Shown here: piece by piece, positions 14,602-63,853 of the stretch
Layout of the letters: every line of letters begins with the position of its first letter
How positions within the stretch are numbered: the first letter of the stretch is position 1
NCBI GenBank assembly: GCA_014084085.1
Contig: NPFB01000025.1
Coordinates: 85,093 to 149,092, forward strand
DNA length: 64,000 bases
Direction: 5' to 3'
Origin: Hondaea fermentalgiana
Lineage: Eukaryota > Sar > Bigyra > Thraustochytrida > Thraustochytriidae
The notes under the pieces: generated by a model
Seen by the model: the letters and a program-made list of their open reading frames with translations, nothing else
Told to the model about the DNA's origin: nothing
Database searches by the model: none
Position numbers and translations under genes: made by a program

Positions 14602-16581
14602 ATGGGCGTCTCTTGGAGGAGTGCCCTCGCGGCGACGGTGGCTGCGGCGATGGTGTTCGTCGGCAGGGCCGAGGAGGCGCCGGGGAACTACGAGATTTTC
14701 TTCGGTGACGACTTTGACATGAGGCTGTCTGAGAAACTCAACGGCGGCAAGAATGTGCTCATGTTGTTCATGGCGCCCTGGTGCAATAACTGCAAGGCTC
14801 TCGCCCCCGAGTTTCTCGAGGCCGCCAAAATTATCGAACAGCTGGGTGAAATCGGAGACCTGAGCCCTACGGTGTTCGCAGAGATTGATGCAGACAACTT
14901 TGCAGACATTGGCGCAAAGTACGAGATCGAGGCGTTCCCGACGCTCAAATGGTTCCCCGCCGGGTCCGACGGCGCGACAGCTGAGCCCTTTGTTGCGGCC
15001 ATGGATGCCGACGGCATGGTGAGCTTTATTAAAAAACAGTCAATGAAGCCACTGGAACCTATTAAGAGCAAGAGCGCTCTGGCAGACTTTCTCGCGCTGC
15101 GCGAGACCATCTCGTTCAAGGACGGTCTGACGGTTCTTGGCGCCAAGAGCCTCGATGCCGCCACGGAGGCGATTGCCGCGATTGACGCTGTACGCAAGTC
15201 GGATACAGAGGGAATGCGCTTCGCGCTCTACGAGAGCGCCACGCCGCTCGCGGACGTTGCCGAGATCTTGGGCGAGCCTGTTGGCAGCGATGATGAGGGT
15301 CTTGTGGTCATTCTCAGCCCTCGCCACGGCGTCAAGTCATTTCCCCTTGACAAGGTTGCCAGTGACGCGGCGGACATCATCATCGAGGCTACGTCGATTC
15401 CCAGCGACGTCGTTGAGCTTACCACGGCCAGTATTGCGGAAGCTTTGAACAAGTACGACTACGCCGTGATCAAGTTCTATGCGCCGTGGTGCGGGTACTG
15501 CCAACAGCTCGCGCCTGTGTACGAGTCTTTGGCTGGCGCCGCCAAGGCGGCGGGTCTCGACAATGTCCTGATTGCCAAGGTGGATGCGACCGCAGAGGAA
15601 GAGCTTGGCGTCGAGTATGGCATCGAAGGCTTTCCCACGCTCAAATGGATTCGCAAGGGTGTTGCCTACGATTTCAGCAATGAGCGCCATGATCATCACG
15701 CTATGCTTGAGTACATTGTCGACAAAATGGGCCCCACCTTTGACAAAGAGCTGACGAGCGCAACCAAGGATGACGTGGACGCTTTCTTTGAGGACCATAA
15801 GGGCAAGCGCGCAGCGTTTATGCTTCTCGCAGAAGAGTCTGCTTCTGACGCCATCGAAGCAGCGGCATACGGAGCCAACGCCGCTGTCGGTCTCTCGACG
15901 AAGACTTCGACGGAGACGATGCAGGCGCTCAACGTTGAGAAGTTGCCAGCAGCCATTGTCAGGAATGAGGCCGGTATGAGCACCACCATTACAGAAGGCG
16001 ACGTGAGCTTTTCAGATATGGATGAGTTGGGCTCGCAGCTTAACATTCTCTCGATGCCGACTATCTCTACCTTTTCGGACGAGTTTCTAGACGAGGCCAT
16101 CGACAGCGGCACGGGCAGCATTTACTTTATGATCTGCGACCCAGAGAGTCCGGCGCTCGATATCCTTGAAAAATTTGCGAGCTCTCGCTCGCGACGTGAA
16201 GAGCTTTTCGCGTTTGTTGATCCCCTCGACGAGGAGATGGACTATGCTCTTGAGTTCTTTGATGCGGCTTTTGAAAAGGGTTCGGACAAGGTTTTTCTTC
16301 GTGCAGTGAATGCTGCCGAAATTGAAATGGGCGGTGGAATCTTCCCCCTTCGCAATTCGAATGGCGAAGCCTTCGTCTCCGCAAGCGACTTGACTGTTGC
16401 AATGCTTGAGACCTTTGCGCAGGATGTCAAGGAGCAAAAGGTAGAACCCCTACCGGAGCCCGCAGAGGAATACCCCGCGGACCCCGATGGTCCTTACCGC
16501 GATGATTCGTACTATGCTGATGCATCCGCGGACGGCGACGCGTCTGTGGACATGGGCGATGCCCTGCACGATGAACTGTAA
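14602..16581 (+). CDS. Protein disulfide isomerase with HDEL tail and non-canonical CNNC / CGYC sites
   Basis: A 659-residue secretory-pathway oxidoreductase. Residues 1-23 form a signal peptide. The first thioredoxin domain (about 27-140) has the active site APWCNNCKA (CNNC at 61-64) and the second (about 265-375) has APWCGYCQQ (CGYC at 297-300). Between and after them lie redox-inactive, thioredoxin-like stretches typical of PDI b domains. An acidic tail ends in HDEL (656-659), the ER retrieval signal. The order a-b-a'-b' plus tail is PDI-like, but both CxxC sites differ from the usual CGHC, which should lower their oxidising potency. At 659 residues it is longer than the classic enzyme of about 500. 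I chose the ATG at 14602 because it begins the signal peptide. The stop is 508 bases from the convergent epsilon-tubulin stop. Confidence 0.9.
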   Translation: MGVSWRSALAATVAAAMVFVGRAEEAPGNYEIFFGDDFDMRLSEKLNGGKNVLMLFMAPWCNNCKALAPEFLEAAKIIEQLGEIGDLSPTVFAEIDADNFADIGAKYEIEAFPTLKWFPAGSDGATAEPFVAAMDADGMVSFIKKQSMKPLEPIKSKSALADFLALRETISFKDGLTVLGAKSLDAATEAIAAIDAVRKSDTEGMRFALYESATPLADVAEILGEPVGSDDEGLVVILSPRHGVKSFPLDKVASDAADIIIEATSIPSDVVELTTASIAEALNKYDYAVIKFYAPWCGYCQQLAPVYESLAGAAKAAGLDNVLIAKVDATAEEELGVEYGIEGFPTLKWIRKGVAYDFSNERHDHHAMLEYIVDKMGPTFDKELTSATKDDVDAFFEDHKGKRAAFMLLAEESASDAIEAAAYGANAAVGLSTKTSTETMQALNVEKLPAAIVRNEAGMSTTITEGDVSFSDMDELGSQLNILSMPTISTFSDEFLDEAIDSGTGSIYFMICDPESPALDILEKFASSRSRREELFAFVDPLDEEMDYALEFFDAAFEKGSDKVFLRAVNAAEIEMGGGIFPLRNSNGEAFVSASDLTVAMLETFAQDVKEQKVEPLPEPAEEYPADPDGPYRDDSYYADASADGDASVDMGDALHDEL

Positions 16582-41917: not shown

Positions 41918-42419
41918 CTTGACGTTTCACTTCTTCGTCGTCAGCTAGTCGTCGCCGTCCTCGTCCTCGGCGCAAACCTGGGCCAGGGATCGGCCCGCGT
42001 GTACCAGGCACGCAAACAAGACTGGCGCGGCCGCGCGCGCGAAAGAAGGGACGTTTGCCTGAGGTAGAGTTAAGTTGCTCGCTCGCTCGCCAGCCAAGTA
42101 CTACTACGAGTCGCCACGTTTGTGCGCGTGCGCGCGCGCTGTCCATCCGGACTTCCGGGCTCCCTTTCCGTATATCCGAGTCATGACAAGCCGTTACGAT
42201 GTCTCCTCACTACTTGGCCCAGCCTGCTACTCGACGCCGACAGGGGCGGCCGGCCCGGGCCGGCGTGCGTGGCACAGTCAGGTCAAGCTGAAAAGTGGGG
42301 TTTGCTGCAGACAGCCAGCCAGCAAGACCGTTGCGGCGCTTCTTGTGGTTGGAAAAACAATCAAGTGCGGACCTGACAGAGACTATTTTTGTTGCTTGCA
42401 GAAAGACAAGGCTGTGACA
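41918..42419. promoter_or_regulatory. Divergent intergenic region membrane protein / VOC-EF-hand gene
   Basis: About 500 bases between two divergent start codons. A pyrimidine tract followed by TTGCAG at about 42395-42400, just before the right-hand ATG, looks like a 3' splice site, so the right-hand gene may have a spliced 5' leader. Confidence 0.35.
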
Positions 42420-43706
42420 ATGAGCGGCGCGACAAGTAGTAAAGAGAGCAGCGGCGACGGGCATCATGTGGTGACCGTGGCTACCGGGACGACTGCAAGC
42501 GCAGAGGCACCGACCAAGTCTGCGCAAGAGCTCGTTGTCGAGCTACGGCGTGCAAATGATGAACTCAAGAGGGAAAACGAGCTCCTCCAGGCCAATGTAG
42601 AACGACTCGGCGACGAGCTCGCCGCGTATCAGCAGAAACATGATCTCGAGACCAAGGGTCTCAATGAGTTTTTGCGCAAGGTGAATCACTACAGTCGCGT
42701 CGTTGCCAATGCAGATATTAGCAAGCAATTTTACGTCGACGTGCTTGGTTGCACAGTCTTAAATCGACCCAATTTCCCCGTCCCAGGCTACTGGCTCTGG
42801 ATGGGCAACATTCAACTGCACCTCATCGAGGGCAAGCATGTAGACCTTCGCATGGACGGTGTGGCTGTAGGCAACGTGAACCACATCTCCTTTGAAGCTC
42901 ACGATATTGGCCGCGTGCAGACACGTCTCGAGGAACTCGAGATCCCATACGAGAAGAAGCTCATTCCTGAAGCTGGCTACTTGCTCGTGCAGCTCTTCTT
43001 TGCGGACCCTGACGGCTATTACATCGAGGTCTGCACATGTGATCAGATGAATGACTTTATCTTTGCAAGTGACCCTGCAAGTGTGCGCGACGGACAAGCC
43101 GCGAACGCCCTGGCAGGCTACACGGAGGGCGTCGAGCCTGTAGGCCCAACGCTGGCACTCATGGCAGGTCTCAGTCTTGCTTCACTTGGGGACAGCGACC
43201 CTTTCTGCTCTACAGAGGCTCTTTTCCAGAGCATGCTTGCCAAACTGCAAAAGGTTTTTGTCACCGTCGCCCCTGGGGCCGAAGAAATTGCTCCTGAAAA
43301 TGTCCTCGAGCTACTTCATAAGCTTGGTCATCCGAATGTAAATGCCGATCAGCTCACGTCTTTGCTCATGTCTGCGGATCTCGATGCTTCAAAGTCGCTC
43401 AGTTTTGTGGAGCTCCTCAAGCTCTTCGTGGAGCTCATCAAGGGCACGCGTGACAATATCAAGCAAGCGCTCGGTTCCGCTTTTCAAGCAGCCGACGCTG
43501 ACGGTAGTGGCGCATTGTCTCGTAGTGAAGTCTTGCAGCTTGTATGGTGTCTCGGAATCCCACTGTCCGAAGACGCCGCCGACCAAGTGTTTGCCAAGGT
43601 CGACCGTAATGCAGATGGAAAAATTGTCATTGCCGAGCTTTCCGACATGGTCCTCGAATTTTCCGCGCAGCTCGCCGAGGGTCTTCGTCAAACCACTGCA
43701 TCATGA
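42420..43706 (+). CDS. Glyoxalase/VOC domain fused to EF-hands
   Basis: A 428-residue protein. A short coiled coil (about 35-75) precedes a VOC (glyoxalase I-like) domain at 87-208, with the expected beta-alpha-beta-beta-beta pattern: VNHYSRVVANADISKQFYVD, LGCTVLNRP, NHISFEAHDI and PDGYYIEVC. Candidate metal ligands are His90, His134, His155 and Glu203. The C-terminal half carries calmodulin-like EF-hands; three have intact 12-residue loops, beginning at Asp320, Asp359 (DADGSGALSRSE) and Asp395 (DRNADGKIVIAE), and one near 285 is degenerate. The frame extends upstream, but that part does not resemble protein. A calcium-regulated VOC enzyme or sensor is inferred; the substrate cannot be assigned. 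Confidence 0.82.
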   Translation: MSGATSSKESSGDGHHVVTVATGTTASAEAPTKSAQELVVELRRANDELKRENELLQANVERLGDELAAYQQKHDLETKGLNEFLRKVNHYSRVVANADISKQFYVDVLGCTVLNRPNFPVPGYWLWMGNIQLHLIEGKHVDLRMDGVAVGNVNHISFEAHDIGRVQTRLEELEIPYEKKLIPEAGYLLVQLFFADPDGYYIEVCTCDQMNDFIFASDPASVRDGQAANALAGYTEGVEPVGPTLALMAGLSLASLGDSDPFCSTEALFQSMLAKLQKVFVTVAPGAEEIAPENVLELLHKLGHPNVNADQLTSLLMSADLDASKSLSFVELLKLFVELIKGTRDNIKQALGSAFQAADADGSGALSRSEVLQLVWCLGIPLSEDAADQVFAKVDRNADGKIVIAELSDMVLEFSAQLAEGLRQTTAS

Positions 43707-55423: not shown

Positions 55424-57454
55424 TCATCCTTTGCGGAGCAAAGGCTTGAATAAATCCCCTCTATTGCTATTTTCAGGCACGTTCGTGATGGGCACCTTTT
55501 GCTGCAGCCTCGCGCTCACACGCCTCCGAGAACATGCACAAGAAAACCAAGACGCCCAAAGCGACTGTGGACCCGGCCCAAGGCGCGCGAGAATGGCACG
55601 CTGCTGGACCCCTGCGCCAATTCCCAGTTGCTCGAGCATTTCCTCATCGATATGTAAGCACGCGCACTTAGAAACCAGACCGGCGTTAAAGATAATCACG
55701 ATTGCCGAACGCGAGACCTGGTCCTTTTGCAGCAAGACTTTCGACACGCGTGAACCAGAGAGAAATTTTAGAAAATCCACCGCGGCCCTAAATTGGGACT
55801 GGCGCGCCACATCTAGAGCAGTACAGCCTCGCTGGTCCGCGGTCTGCACATCTGCGCCCGCAGACCAACAAGCCTGCACACACTGCAAACGTTGAACCAA
55901 TATTTCCGGAGACGAAGAGCTCTTTCGTTCGCAAGCAAGCCGAAGCGCCGCGTCAAGCTTAAGCTTCTCCTTCTTCTTCTTCTCTGCGCAACCATGCGAA
56001 AGCAAGGCATTCACGATCTCATATCCACCGTGGCTACAAGCATGCATGAGGGCGGTAAAGCCTGTCTGCGACATAATCTCGGGATCTGCACCTCGCTCGA
56101 GCAGGAGATTAACAGTCGCACTGAATTTCAACTGGCACGCGAACATTAGCGCTGTTGAGCCATCCCGCGTTCGAAGGTTAATTTCTGCCCCATGCTTGAG
56201 CAAAGCGTCAACGAGGTCGCAGTCTGCGCTTGCGCTGGCAAGCATCAAGGCGGTCACTCCTTCGTGGTCCTGTACGTTCGGGTTTGCGCCATGTCTTAGC
56301 AAAAGCTTTGCGATGCTGGGGTTTCCGCAGGAGCATGCCAGCATGAGCGCCGTGGCCCCGCTATTTGCACGGACTTGGAGGTCAGCACCAGCCGCAATGA
56401 GCGCCTCGACAAGATTGATTGAGCTTGCTCGGCAGCTCGACAGCATGAGCGGGGTTCTGCCAGTATCGTTCACTGCGCACGGATGCGCGCCCTGCGCCAG
56501 CAACAAATGCGCGATTTCATTTTGCTTCGCCTGGCAGGCTTGCACGAGTGCCATGTCCAGTTGCTGCGCAGAGAGACCGAGCTTGAGGATACGCATGGCA
56601 ATGTCTGTGTGCCCAGAACGAATCACATGTTCCATCGACAACGACGTGCATACGAGATTTCTGTTGTGATTAACGACGAATCGAGCCACGTTTAGGAGAT
56701 TGAATTTAAGCGCGAGCTGGAAAGCATCGAGTCCATCAGCCCGCTTGGCCGTGTAGTCTGCGCCGTATTTGAGCATCAAGTTACAGAGTTGTGGTTTTCG
56801 ATAGCGAATAGCGAGCAAGAGTGCAGTGCTTCCGTCGCGAAACCGCTTTTCCATATCCGCGCCTCGTGCAATGAGCGCAGCTGCGGCTGCTGGATGATTG
56901 TACTGAATTGCAAGCAATAGTGCCGTGTCGCCATTGTTGGCGCGCGATTCGATGCGAATATCGTGCTCGATCATTGTCAGAGCAGCATCTTCGTGCCCGT
57001 TGCGAAGAGCAAACATCAATGGAGTGTATCCCGCCTCGTTTTCGAGGTCAGCAATGCCGCCAAGCGCCATCATACAGTCGATTGCCTGCGGTAGACCTTG
57101 CCACGAACATGCCATGTGTAAGGGGGTGTCCCCGCGTTTGTTGCGCACATTGATCTGCGCCCCGGCCCCAACAAGTGCATTTGCAGTCGCGATGTTGCCA
57201 CGCATACACGCGAGGTGCAGCGCGGTATCGCCAGCTGCATTTCTGGCGCCAACCCTCGCGCCTGAAAGAAGAGCTTTCTCGACCTGTTCCGCCGTGCCCG
57301 CCCTCAAGAGCTCATCCTCGACGCGCTGCGTCATTTCCCACATCTTTCGTGCTGCTCGCAATCTCCGTGCCGCGAGGTCTCCCGCCCAGGCCAGCCAAGC
57401 TTGGCTCCTCTCGCGATCTTCTCCCCAATTCCGCTTTGCTCGCTCGCCGTCCAC
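55424..57454 (-). CDS. Ankyrin-repeat protein
   Basis: A 676-residue protein. After a helical N-terminus of about 55 residues, some 15 ankyrin repeats run to about residue 570, many with the GxTALxxAxxxG consensus (AAGDTALHLACMRGN, RSGHTDIAMRILKLG, SGATALMLACSCGN, DGSTALMFACQLK). A few repeats are degenerate. Residues from about 570 lack repeats and include a cysteine-rich end (FSCACSRRR). No catalytic domain is attached, so it is probably a protein-interaction adaptor. The first ATG at 57454 is used; Met38 is another possible start. It is head-to-head (680 bases) with the VOC gene. Confidence 0.8.
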   Translation of the reverse strand: MDGERAKRNWGEDRERSQAWLAWAGDLAARRLRAARKMWEMTQRVEDELLRAGTAEQVEKALLSGARVGARNAAGDTALHLACMRGNIATANALVGAGAQINVRNKRGDTPLHMACSWQGLPQAIDCMMALGGIADLENEAGYTPLMFALRNGHEDAALTMIEHDIRIESRANNGDTALLLAIQYNHPAAAAALIARGADMEKRFRDGSTALLLAIRYRKPQLCNLMLKYGADYTAKRADGLDAFQLALKFNLLNVARFVVNHNRNLVCTSLSMEHVIRSGHTDIAMRILKLGLSAQQLDMALVQACQAKQNEIAHLLLAQGAHPCAVNDTGRTPLMLSSCRASSINLVEALIAAGADLQVRANSGATALMLACSCGNPSIAKLLLRHGANPNVQDHEGVTALMLASASADCDLVDALLKHGAEINLRTRDGSTALMFACQLKFSATVNLLLERGADPEIMSQTGFTALMHACSHGGYEIVNALLSHGCAEKKKKEKLKLDAALRLACERKSSSSPEILVQRLQCVQACWSAGADVQTADQRGCTALDVARQSQFRAAVDFLKFLSGSRVSKVLLQKDQVSRSAIVIIFNAGLVSKCACLHIDEEMLEQLGIGAGVQQRAILARLGPGPQSLWASWFSCACSRRRVSARLQQKVPITNVPENSNRGDLFKPLLRKG

Positions 57455-59113: not shown

Positions 59114-62100
59114 TCAGATGCAAAAGAGCAGGTCTTCGATATCGCCTGTCGAGGTACTTCCACCGCTACTGCTCTGGCTTTCAGACGTCAGCGAAGACAC
59201 CGATTGGCCTTCCCAACGAAGCGCCGAAGGCTTGCGGCTCTCCTGCTTTGAGACACTTTTGCGCCGCACCTTTTTCTTGTGAGCTGTCACGAGCTCCACC
59301 GCGGCAAATTCCAAATGCTCGCGCTCTTCACGCGCAAGCTTGAGAAAGGGAAATCGGTCCGATAGACGATCCGCAAAGTGAATACGCAAAAGCTCCTTGA
59401 ACGCCGGTGAGAAAAGCTCACGGAAACGCACATCTTCCACAATAATCTTGACAAAGTTGCGCACATGAGGAAAACCGCGATCCAGCAAAGAAACCTGATG
59501 CACACATTGCACTCCCATTTCGATGAAAAACAGGTGCGAAAACACTAGGATATCCGCGAGACCCATTTCTTCTCCACAAAGATACTCGCCCAAGCTACTG
59601 GCCTCAAGCTCGGCCAAAAGGTCATCCAAAACCTTCAAAATTGACTCCATCTGAGCGAGATGAAGCATGTTTTGACCTTCGCGATGCGCCAGGCTACCAA
59701 ACTCTTGCAGACGAAGCTTGGCCACTGCGTCTCTCTCATTCTGCCTCACCAAGGCTGTCACCTGAAGAGGACTGTGCTCCACGTCTTGCGCATCACCATG
59801 AAACTTGGCCGTAAATAAAATTAAAAACGGTTCCGCAAACTCAGGCATGGATCTCTTAAAGGATTCTCGACGCGAAAATTGATCCACCCAGGCATTCACA
59901 CGAGGGAAACCCTCCGCCGTCAGCTCAAACCCGTGAAACCAGGCACAACACACTTTCACAATGCGCCAAATCGAAGTGACCAGGGCCACGTCAGCCACTG
60001 CGCACGTTGGACCCAACAGAAAGGGCCCGCCCGAGTCCGCAAGCTGAGTCTCCATCGCGCCCAAGAGCTCACACATTTCGCGTCGTTTAGCCGCACGCGT
60101 CGGGTCGTTCGTCTTCGCCTTGAGGTATGCTTCGCAAATGGCATCGCACGCGTTAAAGAGTGCCATCTCCGCGCAGCCGTCCACGCGAGAGACCCCCTCG
60201 AGCCGCAAGGGCTTGTCCAGTGTCGCGTACCTCTGCGTGAAAAGTCGCTGCATTGTATTGAGCACAATTTGGGACTCGTTCGTCCATACACCATTCCAAT
60301 AAATACTGGGGCATTTTCCAGTGCTCGAAGCTTCCGTGAACCACGCCGGCTTGTCGAGCAAGTCGATCTTAACAGTATGATGCGGAACGCCCGCTTCAAT
60401 CGCGACCATCTCCACTACGCGTGAAAAGGGACACACTTTGGTCAAGAACTCATCGCGATGCACGCATCCAATTGCCAAGTATACCTTGTTCATCTCAAAT
60501 GAGGGGCCTGCCATGCCTCCCTTCACGCTGACGGATCCGTCTGCCGCCACGCAAATTGTGTCCTTGCCATAACTCGACATGAGCGTTGTCACCATGTCCT
60601 CTTCTGCGGCCTTGCGAGCCACTGTGCTGCGGCACCGCAGCGGCTGCCACGCAGGGAACTTGCGCTCGTAGTGAGCTGCGGCATTCAAGACATAAAATGG
60701 CGTCGCGCCTTCAGTCTCGGAGGTTTCACGCATCAACGCTGTCCGCGCCATCGCAGTCACATACCGCTGCAGTCGCGATAGACCATGTCGCTCCGCGCAA
60801 AAACCAGCCATGGGCCGCAAGACACGCTCGAGGCAATAATGTAAGTGCGGAGCAAGAATGAGGTCATCCAGACCCACTTCCCTTGCACCAGACAGAAAAG
60901 GATACCATGTCAGCGTGACAGTCTGCGCTTTCGTGTCTTCGCGGGTATTGTCGGTCGCTTCATTTTCTGCAAGAATCGTTTCGAGCGGTTGCAAAACGTT
61001 GAGCAAAGTCGCTAGACATTTAGCATCAACCTCGTTGCGCTGTGGCTCGACGCCAGAGCCGTCTGGTCTCATCATATAAGCATCCGTTGCCGCCTCAAGC
61101 TCCTCGCAAATGCGAAAGACATCCGCATAGCTGGTGCGCCGAGGCAGTCGGTCAAAGTCTGCGCGGTACAGCTCGTGCAAGACGTCGAGAATGGCTTTGT
61201 CCCCCACGGTGACCCTTTCGTCGGGACCAGGACCCAATAGCATAGGCACTTGATCCGGACCAACCCAAGTTGGCGGGTCGGCAGCATCAACCAGCACCGT
61301 GCTATGCGGGATGCCCAAAGCGCGCATGACCATTTCCACCTTTTGCGAAGAGGGGCAGTTGCGCACGAGACGATCCCCGCGGTGACCCACGCCAATGCAA
61401 AGAAAAGCTCTAGACCCATTTGCAGGTGGGCGCTCCTTTACTTTGCGCTGCTGGCGCAAACGTTTCAGTCGGCTCTGATCTGACCCGAGCACCTCGTCCA
61501 TATTACCAGCCCCGGCTGCCTTGATGTTGAGTACAATCTTGCCTCGAGCTTCTTCGGGGTTCATGGCCAACATTTCTCGCATTTTCTCGGGACTCGAGAA
61601 AATTACAAGGTGAACATGGCGTTCAAGCACGTCGAAAAAGGACCAGGTCGCGACCGGGAGATCGTGCGTGCGATTTGCGCGCTTGGCCTGCGCCGGAAAC
61701 TTGCGGTGCAAGTAGCGCATGATATCTCTCGAATTGTGCGTCCACTTCCCTTCATAGTAGATTGTGGGCGTGCGTCCGGTCGGCACAGCCTCCGTAAACC
61801 ACGAGGGCTTGGCGTTCCAGTCAATGTCAATAACTTGATGAGGTATACCGGCGACAATGAGGAACATGTATACCATTCGAGAGTACGGGCACATGCGCGC
61901 AAGATAATTTTTGATGCGGATGCAACCATAGCAAAGGTACACTGTGCCTACCAATGGATCATCTGGCAGCGTTGTCACGACTGCAGCGTGCGTCGCATCG
62001 TTCCGTAAAGTCGTGTCTCGCCCTTGGATCCGGCCAACTCTTGTGCTGCGGCCTTGGCTCCGCAAGCCAGATGCGAGCCGGCGCGCCTGGCTCTTGCTCG

Positions 62101-63853
62101 CCCGGCGCGCCTGGAGCTGATGCAAGTCTTCGACTTCGTCATCGTCGCTGTCTTCGAGAGCATGCAGCGCTTCCATAAGTCTCTCGTGCGTGACGCCAAC
62201 GGCCGCTTCAACGCCATCAAACTTGTCGAAATTAGCCCGAATACCCTTGCCTCCAGGGCGTCGCTCCATCATGTTGCCAAAGAGAATGCCGCCAAGCTCG
62301 AGATCCGTGCCTCTGTACTGAGTTGTGCATACCAGCAAGTCGTTGTAAACAGAGTCATGCCCCGAAAAGCTCACGCTGAGAACGATGTTTGCCATTTCCT
62401 CCGGGTCGAGCAGGAATCGTCGGAGAGGCGATTGTTCGTCGATCTTGTGTATAATCGTTGCGACTGCAGTGACAATGGGCGGGAACGAGGTCTCGAGCGT
62501 GTCATACCCGACAAAGTTCTCGCCTTCCGTCGTTTCGTGAAATCGCAAAAGATTAACGGATACGCGGGTTTCGTAGACGAGATTGACGCGTCGATTCCCC
62601 ACGCGAATGAGCAAGGTCGGCTCGCCATCTCGAGTTGTCACCAATGCCTTTTTGCTAAAGACAATGTCTGGCTTGGGAATCTGAAACTTGGAAACAACCA
62701 CGGAGAGGACAATCACATTGAGCATGATGCCGGCAAATTGCTGCACGCATGAGAGCACATACAGGCCGTATGATCCAGGTAGACAGGGGCCGTATCCGAG
62801 AGTCAAGATGTTGCTCGTCGCAAAAACAAAGGCGCTGCCAAACGTTCCTGGAATGAAAATATCCTCGCCCGACTCGCACTCGATCTCATCCGAGAGAATC
62901 CACGACACGAGCGACCACAAGAGACACATGAGCAAATAGCTCAATGCTGAGAGGAAAAAGACAAACGCCCAGCTCCAATCAAGAAGCACATAATACCAAT
63001 TCTTCGCCTCGTACCATTTGGAGGCGCCGGTGCCATGCAGTGCTGATCTCTTCTTCCGCTTGCCGGACTCAATGTGGTCCGGGAGGTATTTCCGTTGCTT
63101 GTAGGAGTGTTTGTGTTTCTTGCGCAGTCGCTCGACGCGGAAGCGCCTCCAATCTGCGAGGGACATCCCGATTGCATGCGTATGATTGCGTCGTGGTTGG
63201 TCTCGTTGAATTCCTTCGAGGGTGCCGAAATTGACCTCGCTTGCGGATCGCGGGCAATTTTCTACCGATTCTTCACGGTAAATTTCGTCCTTTTTCTTTT
63301 TCCGTCTCCTCATGCTTGTGGTCCGCAAAGGGAGTTCCCCGCCGTCTTCGACAAGAGCATTATCTTCTTTGTTCTCCTCTTCGCCTTTGTTGTCGCCATC
63401 ACCTTCTTCTTCTTCGTCTTCTTCTTCTTCTCGTTCTTCTGTTTCTCCGTTTCCATCGTCGTCGACGTCGTCGTCATTGCCGTTGTTGTCGTTGTTGCGT
63501 GTTCTCTTGTGTTGGTCATGACGATGATGATGACTTTTATGATGATGAGAAGGAGAAGGGGGATTGCTGTCTTCAAGATTTACGTCTTCTGGAGACAAGA
63601 TGCACGTTTGCATAGCCACCATGGCGTCGCGGCTGTCGTGGCGTGTTGACCTCCGCTCTCCGCGCTCCACGTCCTCTTCGCCCGGGTCATGGACCAGAGT
63701 GCTTTCGCTGCCGAGCAAGTGGTCTCGACCACTACCGGCACGGCCGGTACGGGCGAAGGATGCACCATGCTCGGCGTCACTGCCGCCATCGTAGACGCCC
63801 TTCCGGCTGCGCGCGGCCTCCTCGTCGCGCGCGCTCGAGCTGCTTGCTCCCAT
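59114..63853 (-). CDS. Inward-rectifier (Kir) K+ channel fused to tandem CLIC/DHAR/GST-like modules
   Basis: A 1579-residue single-exon protein. Residues 1-225 are disordered, with His-rich, acidic and basic runs. A Kir channel follows: slide helix and first membrane helix (about 280-320), pore with filter TLGYGP (351-356), second helix (361-388), and the Kir cytosolic domain (about 392-560: IVFSKKALVTTRDG, LLIRVGNRRVNLVYETRV). After a basic linker come three thioredoxin-fold/GST modules, each opened by a (V/F)(Y/C)Lx(Y/I)GC/V element and a CPxS motif: CPYS at 655-658, CPSS at 833-836, CPFS at 1141-1144. Modules one and three have the DHAR/CLIC run KPxWFTEAxxTGxxPxIY. GST C-terminal helices follow the third (GPTCAVADVALV), and a fourth, headless one (GEEMGLADILVFSH) lies at about 1395-1490. 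K+ conduction tuned by thiol redox or glutathione is inferred. The ATG at 63853 is the first of the frame. Confidence 0.88.
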   Translation of the reverse strand: MGASSSSARDEEAARSRKGVYDGGSDAEHGASFARTGRAGSGRDHLLGSESTLVHDPGEEDVERGERRSTRHDSRDAMVAMQTCILSPEDVNLEDSNPPSPSHHHKSHHHRHDQHKRTRNNDNNGNDDDVDDDGNGETEEREEEEDEEEEGDGDNKGEEENKEDNALVEDGGELPLRTTSMRRRKKKKDEIYREESVENCPRSASEVNFGTLEGIQRDQPRRNHTHAIGMSLADWRRFRVERLRKKHKHSYKQRKYLPDHIESGKRKKRSALHGTGASKWYEAKNWYYVLLDWSWAFVFFLSALSYLLMCLLWSLVSWILSDEIECESGEDIFIPGTFGSAFVFATSNILTLGYGPCLPGSYGLYVLSCVQQFAGIMLNVIVLSVVVSKFQIPKPDIVFSKKALVTTRDGEPTLLIRVGNRRVNLVYETRVSVNLLRFHETTEGENFVGYDTLETSFPPIVTAVATIIHKIDEQSPLRRFLLDPEEMANIVLSVSFSGHDSVYNDLLVCTTQYRGTDLELGGILFGNMMERRPGGKGIRANFDKFDGVEAAVGVTHERLMEALHALEDSDDDEVEDLHQLQARRASKSQARRLASGLRSQGRSTRVGRIQGRDTTLRNDATHAAVVTTLPDDPLVGTVYLCYGCIRIKNYLARMCPYSRMVYMFLIVAGIPHQVIDIDWNAKPSWFTEAVPTGRTPTIYYEGKWTHNSRDIMRYLHRKFPAQAKRANRTHDLPVATWSFFDVLERHVHLVIFSSPEKMREMLAMNPEEARGKIVLNIKAAGAGNMDEVLGSDQSRLKRLRQQRKVKERPPANGSRAFLCIGVGHRGDRLVRNCPSSQKVEMVMRALGIPHSTVLVDAADPPTWVGPDQVPMLLGPGPDERVTVGDKAILDVLHELYRADFDRLPRRTSYADVFRICEELEAATDAYMMRPDGSGVEPQRNEVDAKCLATLLNVLQPLETILAENEATDNTREDTKAQTVTLTWYPFLSGAREVGLDDLILAPHLHYCLERVLRPMAGFCAERHGLSRLQRYVTAMARTALMRETSETEGATPFYVLNAAAHYERKFPAWQPLRCRSTVARKAAEEDMVTTLMSSYGKDTICVAADGSVSVKGGMAGPSFEMNKVYLAIGCVHRDEFLTKVCPFSRVVEMVAIEAGVPHHTVKIDLLDKPAWFTEASSTGKCPSIYWNGVWTNESQIVLNTMQRLFTQRYATLDKPLRLEGVSRVDGCAEMALFNACDAICEAYLKAKTNDPTRAAKRREMCELLGAMETQLADSGGPFLLGPTCAVADVALVTSIWRIVKVCCAWFHGFELTAEGFPRVNAWVDQFSRRESFKRSMPEFAEPFLILFTAKFHGDAQDVEHSPLQVTALVRQNERDAVAKLRLQEFGSLAHREGQNMLHLAQMESILKVLDDLLAELEASSLGEYLCGEEMGLADILVFSHLFFIEMGVQCVHQVSLLDRGFPHVRNFVKIIVEDVRFRELFSPAFKELLRIHFADRLSDRFPFLKLAREEREHLEFAAVELVTAHKKKVRRKSVSKQESRKPSALRWEGQSVSSLTSESQSSSGGSTSTGDIEDLLFCI
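62786..62803 (-). other. Kir selectivity-filter coding site (TLGYGP)
   Basis: The codons for TLGYGP lie in the pore loop after AFVFATSNI. The GYG signature indicates K+ selectivity. The second filter residue is Leu where most Kir channels have Ile, a conservative change. Confidence 0.85.

Follow-up and report, generated by a model that had tools for sequence, protein, structure and literature searches.

A predicted Kir-type channel protein with a covalent chain of cysteine-GST modules in Hondaea fermentalgiana

Hondaea fermentalgiana is a thraustochytrid stramenopile. In a window of its genome (the whole stretch of DNA that was analyzed, 64,000 nucleotides of contig NPFB01000025.1 in assembly GCA_014084085.1), a single minus-strand frame (59114..63853) runs from ATG through the stop codon without interruption and encodes a protein of 1579 residues. 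As judged by open reading frame and Pfam analysis, this protein combines an inward rectifier (Kir)-type potassium channel part with three glutathione S-transferase (GST) modules plus one more GST helical domain. The original prediction had placed the Kir pore and a chain of modules in one frame, and the 1579 open codons on the minus strand confirm this. We consider it slightly better than an even chance that the protein is a genuine Kir-type channel subunit that carries a covalent chain of cysteine-GST modules and is controlled through them. As far as the sequences can tell, the Kir-GST join itself is genuine and not an artefact.

Architecture of the fused frame

The Kir part was recognized by alignment, profile and motif. 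Residues 284 to 536 align with the solved structure of KirBac3.1 across the filter and the cytosolic domain (E 6.3e-20), which identifies a two-transmembrane P-loop pore of the Kir kind. The transmembrane and pore region (residues 284 to 392; 62678..63004) includes a Pfam Ion_trans_2 match at residues 309 to 390 and the selectivity filter TLGYG (residues 351 to 355; 62789..62803), which has the form T-x-G-Y/F-G and is flanked by Cys326 and Cys357. In the following cytosolic domain (residues 393 to 550; 62204..62677), IRK_C matched residues 397 to 549 with 54.5 bits at a cut-off of 22.5 (E 1.5e-14); the IRK transmembrane profile PF01007 reached 16.0 bits, under its cut-off of 22.7. The Kir identity proposed from the TLGYG pore and the cytosolic domain was thus upheld. 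Both filter-flanking cysteines, as well as Cys509 in the cytosolic domain, are kept wherever the relatives P0002, P0003 and P0004 have the region.

The GST modules begin with a thioredoxin/GST_N domain of the omega/DHAR/CLIC-like kind (61679..61954) that bears the motif CPYS (Cys655). Its CLIC-like_N match (residues 654 to 717) scored 36.3 bits at a cut-off of 23.5, and its best structure matches were pyrimidodiazepine synthase (3e-9), the dehydroascorbate reductase (DHAR) DHAR2 (9.2e-8) and GST omega-1 (∼5e-7). A short region of AlphaFold-predicted helices follows (residues 726 to 811; 61421..61678). Module 2 consists of a thioredoxin/GST_N domain with the motif CPSS (Cys833; 61139..61420), assigned by alignment and AlphaFold, and a helical GST_C-like domain (60554..61138), for which GST_C_2 gave 17.6 bits, below its cut-off of 24.9, and AlphaFold predicted helices. 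In module 3, the DHAR-like thioredoxin/GST_N domain with CPFS (Cys1141; 60218..60490) is followed by a GST_C domain with structure and profile matches (59819..60217), and the module matches the dehydroascorbate reductase 5d9t along its length (E 8.5e-13). Over the whole protein, Pfam reported GST_N_2 in three stretches and GST_C_2 in three stretches. In our reading of the alignment for the glutathione-site motif, the cis-proline appears in modules 1 to 3, and the Glu/Asp-Ser position reads ES in module 3 and NS in module 1.

The DHAR, omega and CLIC-like_N matches bear out the assignment of the modules to the cysteine-GSTs, and all three CPxS motifs predicted in thioredoxin folds are present, although module 2 is degenerate and its profile and structure matches are weak when it is taken alone. 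The modules scored far below the cut-off of 358.95 bits for CLIC proper (O-ClC, NCBIfam TIGR00862), with 26.6 bits for module 1 and 21.5 for module 3. The predicted chain of three modules stood, but an additional GST_C domain without a thioredoxin domain of its own had been overlooked (∼residues 1346 to 1530; 59264..59818; PF00043, E 2.6e-6). The protein ends in the conserved tail DIEDLLFCI (59117..59143), whose penultimate residue is Cys1578 and of which 8, 9 and 9 of the 9 residues are identical in P0002, P0004 and P0003, respectively.

The Kir part and module 1 are connected by a linker (residues 551 to 633; 61955..62203) that is identical to P0002 at 31/77 positions and to P0004 at 21/69 and contains a block, L-ND-T...P at residues 616 to 630, common to relatives. 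Identity to P0002 is 113/157 in the Kir cytosolic domain ahead of it and 53/92 in module 1 behind it. The same domain order was found in full-length P0002 (1462 residues, 47% identical, covering 98% of query residues 275 to 1560) and P0004 (1379 residues, 41% identical, 98% coverage), and more distant Kir-GST proteins were found as well. Since the frames of P0002 and P0004 are open across the join, a frameshift at 61950-62200, which had been named as a possible refutation, is unlikely. P0003, a sequence with its start missing and a name beginning "Auranti," has the modules and the tail, and the Kir part is absent. The taxonomy identifier of its source name is that of the fungus Rhizopogon burlinghamii despite the "Auranti" name, probably a slip.

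The N-terminal region (residues 1 to 223; 63185..63853) is variable, acidic/basic and weakly conserved, with 44/149 aligned residues matching P0002. The database counterpart from H. fermentalgiana, P0001, named "Inward rectifier potassium channel 2" (1524 residues), is 100% identical over the query region and 55 residues shorter; it skips residues 62 to 116, a GT...AG-bounded stretch of 165 nucleotides (63506..63670) that is presumably an intron and lies far from the Kir-GST join.

Structure prediction gave a mixed outcome. The three thioredoxin domains of the window protein were modeled by AlphaFold with a predicted local distance difference test (pLDDT), by blocks of ten residues, of 80 to 88, 53 to 81 and 63 to 81, respectively. 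In Foldseek, the module model matched DHAR structures with a target TM of 0.79 to 0.87 and CLIC1 with up to 0.80, the top match being Leishmania TDR1 (4ags). The GST folds expected for the modules were therefore recovered, but the Kir cytosolic domain of the window protein had a pLDDT below 50 throughout, in a model of a piece without the transmembrane region built on a 4-row alignment. For P0024, a relative with a single module and the filter TMSGG, AlphaFold predicted a KirBac-like and a DHAR-like fold within the same chain.

Elsewhere in the window, a 659-residue frame (14602-16581, plus strand) bears two thioredoxin domain stretches, and a 507-residue frame (42183-43706, plus strand) combines an EF-hand pair with a glyoxalase-type domain. 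The frame at 55424-57454 on the minus strand, 639 residues from an ATG or 676 from a GTG, looks ankyrin-repeat-like by eye.

Distribution and history of the family

Protein searches were made with Kir-GST queries and length limits, and the best ∼7,990 word-sharing candidates were scored in each. A profile search started with the relatives found first yielded at least 32 proteins (31 new), and a final profile search yielded at least 16 (10 new). The resulting working set comprised 46 rows including the window protein, with P0001 omitted as the same gene. In 43/46 rows, a GST module accompanied a Kir core, a figure that overstates the frequency of fusion in the Kir clade because of these queries, length limits and candidate numbers; the exceptions are P0003, without Kir, and P0036 and P0046, without GST. 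The Kir part precedes the GST part in 41 of the 43 two-part rows. The number of modules is 1, 2, 3 or 5: P0007 to P0011, near-copies of ∼2400 residues, each have a Kir part and five tandem modules. Identical or near-identical duplicated modules were seen in P0022, P0030 and P0037, which may be assembly or model artefacts. Named distant relatives come from Chloropicon primus (P0035, which has a single module, and P0037) and Pyramimonas (P0032). Taken together, these proteins look like a genuine channel family of thraustochytrids and green algae that has apparently not been described before. Prokaryotic or viral relatives were not found: A5 pattern scans hit 64 stretches in viruses and 33 in genomes, and tblastn confirmed none of them as a relative.

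At least three other Kir-like frames exist in the Hondaea genome (36.0 Mb, 238 contigs), and the family module model detected no GST module in three of them. In these unfused Kirs (L013, L014 and L015), the cytosolic domain matches are split in two, that is, they carry long insertions. The window Kir core scored 83 to 135 bits with the Kir parts of non-thraustochytrid family members (rows matched) and 32 and 19 bits with two of the other Hondaea Kirs, the third being unmatched. In a Kir tree, which gave long-branch warnings and had only two other Hondaea Kirs as outgroup, the 30 family Kirs were separated from those two with support 100/100, and the window protein, P0002 and P0004 clustered with 97/98.

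A GST tree of 50 rows placed 11 thraustochytrid modules in one clade (96/90), within which modules 1, 2 and 3 clustered by position, and 23 other fused modules in a separate clade (99/99). By these sequences, the module arrays seem to have grown inside each line. A single origin of the fusion was not upheld, as the branch that joins the thraustochytrid and other fused modules and splits both from 16 other Hondaea GST frames had a support of just 59/56; there may thus have been one or two fusion events.

The module active site is well conserved. Of the 71 module rows with a residue at the active-site position (82 matches in 44 proteins, with 11 gaps, near-copies included and thraustochytrid module 2 outside the set), 69 have the cysteine, and the remaining two, the first modules of P0018 and P0019, have an aspartate. 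Tryptophan is found in 73/73 and the cis-proline in 71/72 of the module rows, and the cysteine is found in all 17 rows of alignment A5. According to our alignment reading, the cysteine of thraustochytrid module 2 is kept in 4/4 proteins, and P0002, P0003 and P0004 retain all three module cysteines as far as they extend over them.

Proposed control through the modules and alternative readings

Lipids, G proteins and ATP regulate animal Kir channels, and in DHAR, omega GST and CLIC proteins the first cysteine of CPxS/C works with glutathione. Some animal Kir channels are glutathionylated under stress, and S-glutathionylation of Kir5.1 Cys158 and Kir6.1 Cys176 inhibits these channels, as described in PMC11631806. 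From this combination of cysteine chemistry and channel modification, we infer a Kir channel with glutathione- or thiol-sensing modules. Four subunits would build the K+ pore together with the ring of Kir cytosolic domains, with three modules per subunit hanging below the membrane. The CPxS cysteines would bind glutathione or react with thiols, and the redox or ligand state of the modules would reach the cytosolic domain via the linker, so that opening would follow the glutathione, dehydroascorbate or peroxide state. The modules might also add glutathione to, or remove it from, cysteines of the channel or its partners.

Several observations weigh against such control. Module 2 tested alone scores below the Pfam cut-off (GST_N_2, 23.1 bits with a cut-off of 25), its best solved structure being DHAR2 at E 0.0042, and by alignment reading it is without the Glu/Asp-Ser expected of the glutathione site. 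With a predicted TM score (pTM) of 0.36, the model of the window piece is uninformative on the placement of the modules relative to the Kir domain. Compared by eye with Kir6.1, the Hondaea protein presumably has no cysteine at the Cys176 position. GYG/GFG is gone in 29 of the 43 rows with a filter region and kept in 14 (window protein included, near-copies counted), and among the 29 is the close thraustochytrid P0002, with TLSSS in its place.

This last point bears on the possibility that the protein is a membrane-anchored thiol transferase, in which the redox chemistry of the modules would be the conserved job and the Kir part would mainly provide a tetrameric scaffold or a pore with a different selectivity. 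The filter is changed in P0002, P0005 to P0020, P0022 to P0029, P0031, P0033, P0034 and P0046, with replacements such as TLSSS, TMSGG, TGGPG, TGSSA and MMSFG, while the pore helix and, where present, the modules are retained. After thinning to 30 rows (of the 46, 2 were dropped for want of a Kir match and 14 as near-copies or partial sequences), the filter was kept in 9 and lost in 21, and the tree of this set implied 4 filter changes (3 to 4 in bootstraps), 2 of them forced by well-supported branches. This frequent loss suggests that the pores of many relatives lost K+ selectivity or conduction. The well-kept module cysteine and the Kir fold modeled for P0024 despite its TMSGG filter are likewise consistent with a transferase. 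On the other side, the window protein and P0004 keep both TLGYG and the two flanking cysteines, and pore-helix residues are alike where the filter changed, which argues for a pore that was kept rather than decayed. We regard the transferase as an unlikely alternative.

We consider it equally improbable that the modules are non-enzymatic, serving as interaction or dimerization units that cluster channels or recruit partners without redox sensing. The variable module number, the degeneracy of module 2, the extra GST_C domain without a thioredoxin domain and the aspartates of P0018 and P0019 would fit such a role, but it would be difficult to account for the conservation of cysteine, tryptophan and cis-proline if the modules had no thiol or ligand chemistry; the well-kept cysteine in particular points to chemistry rather than mere binding.

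A more elaborate and rather doubtful proposal describes a redox-operated Kir-like family with the glutathione-type module as its conserved core, in which pore selectivity shifted repeatedly and the tail cysteine would form a mixed disulfide with a module CPxS cysteine, latching the gate. A penultimate C-terminal cysteine is present in 37/46 rows, preceded by I, L or F and followed by I, L, T or V, and lies between hydrophobic residues on both sides in 34 of the 37. Nine rows lack it; among them are partial sequences and others that depart from close siblings at the ends alone, and several of the nine look like model errors. The tail may serve as a scaffold ligand or else supply a tethered thiol. 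Its docking into a GST site received no support from the two AlphaFold models, in both of which the tail was unstructured (pLDDT by blocks ∼20 to 28 and 32 to 34). A covalent PDZ lock, as in NorpA-InaD, where a penultimate cysteine forms a disulfide with a PDZ domain (PMC2891790), was likewise not supported: among 14 Hondaea PDZ matches, of which 12 loci were read (L035 lying outside a PDZ-like frame), the visible carboxylate-binding loops, identified by motif, have no cysteine right after them.

Finally, that two adjoining genes were read as one through an assembly or gene-model artefact is extremely improbable, for although gene models are uncertain, since the database model departs from this frame close to the N-terminus, and P0022, P0030 and P0037 look like duplicated or rearranged models, the Hondaea frame is open in the DNA itself, the domain order and partly conserved linker recur in P0002 and P0004, and Pyramimonas P0032, which bears a transcriptome (MMETSP) name, combines a Kir core with a GST-like stretch that matches the family module model (E 4.3e-14; Pfam gave no GST match).

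Relation to known systems

We know of no Kir carrying GST modules. The original prediction had likewise named no channel family of this architecture, and none was found described in the literature searched (titles and abstract openings among the matches listed, with few subscription papers); term look-up gave no mention of a Kir-GST fusion in PMC12221091, PMC6731263, PMC12301720 and PMC7576140. The protein thus appears to add to a known channel class, Kir, a domain not found reported with it in that literature. If the preferred reading of a Kir channel controlled through its modules is true, built-in glutathione-type modules would be a direct and testable wire from redox state to membrane voltage. 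The variation in module number, together with the filter loss in many relatives, is in addition a natural experiment on pores changing or abandoning their selectivity.

With KirBac3.1 and the animal Kir channels (Kir2.x, Kir5.1 and Kir6.x), the protein shares the pore region, the GYG filter and the Kir cytosolic domain, and the model of P0024 superposes on KirBac; in contrast to them, its C-terminal half is wholly different, consisting of GST modules, and many relatives are without GYG/GFG. Leishmania TDR1 similarly has tandem GST modules in one chain but no channel domain. Among the CLIC, omega and lambda cysteine-GSTs, likeness is seen in the CLIC-like_N and GST omega-1 matches of module 1 and in the CLIC1 match of the model, whereas those proteins are without a Kir fusion and the O-ClC score is far below its cut-off. 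DHAR resembles module 3 in sequence and in its CPFS active site and matches the model in fold, while the modules of the window protein are arranged in tandem and tethered to a membrane channel.
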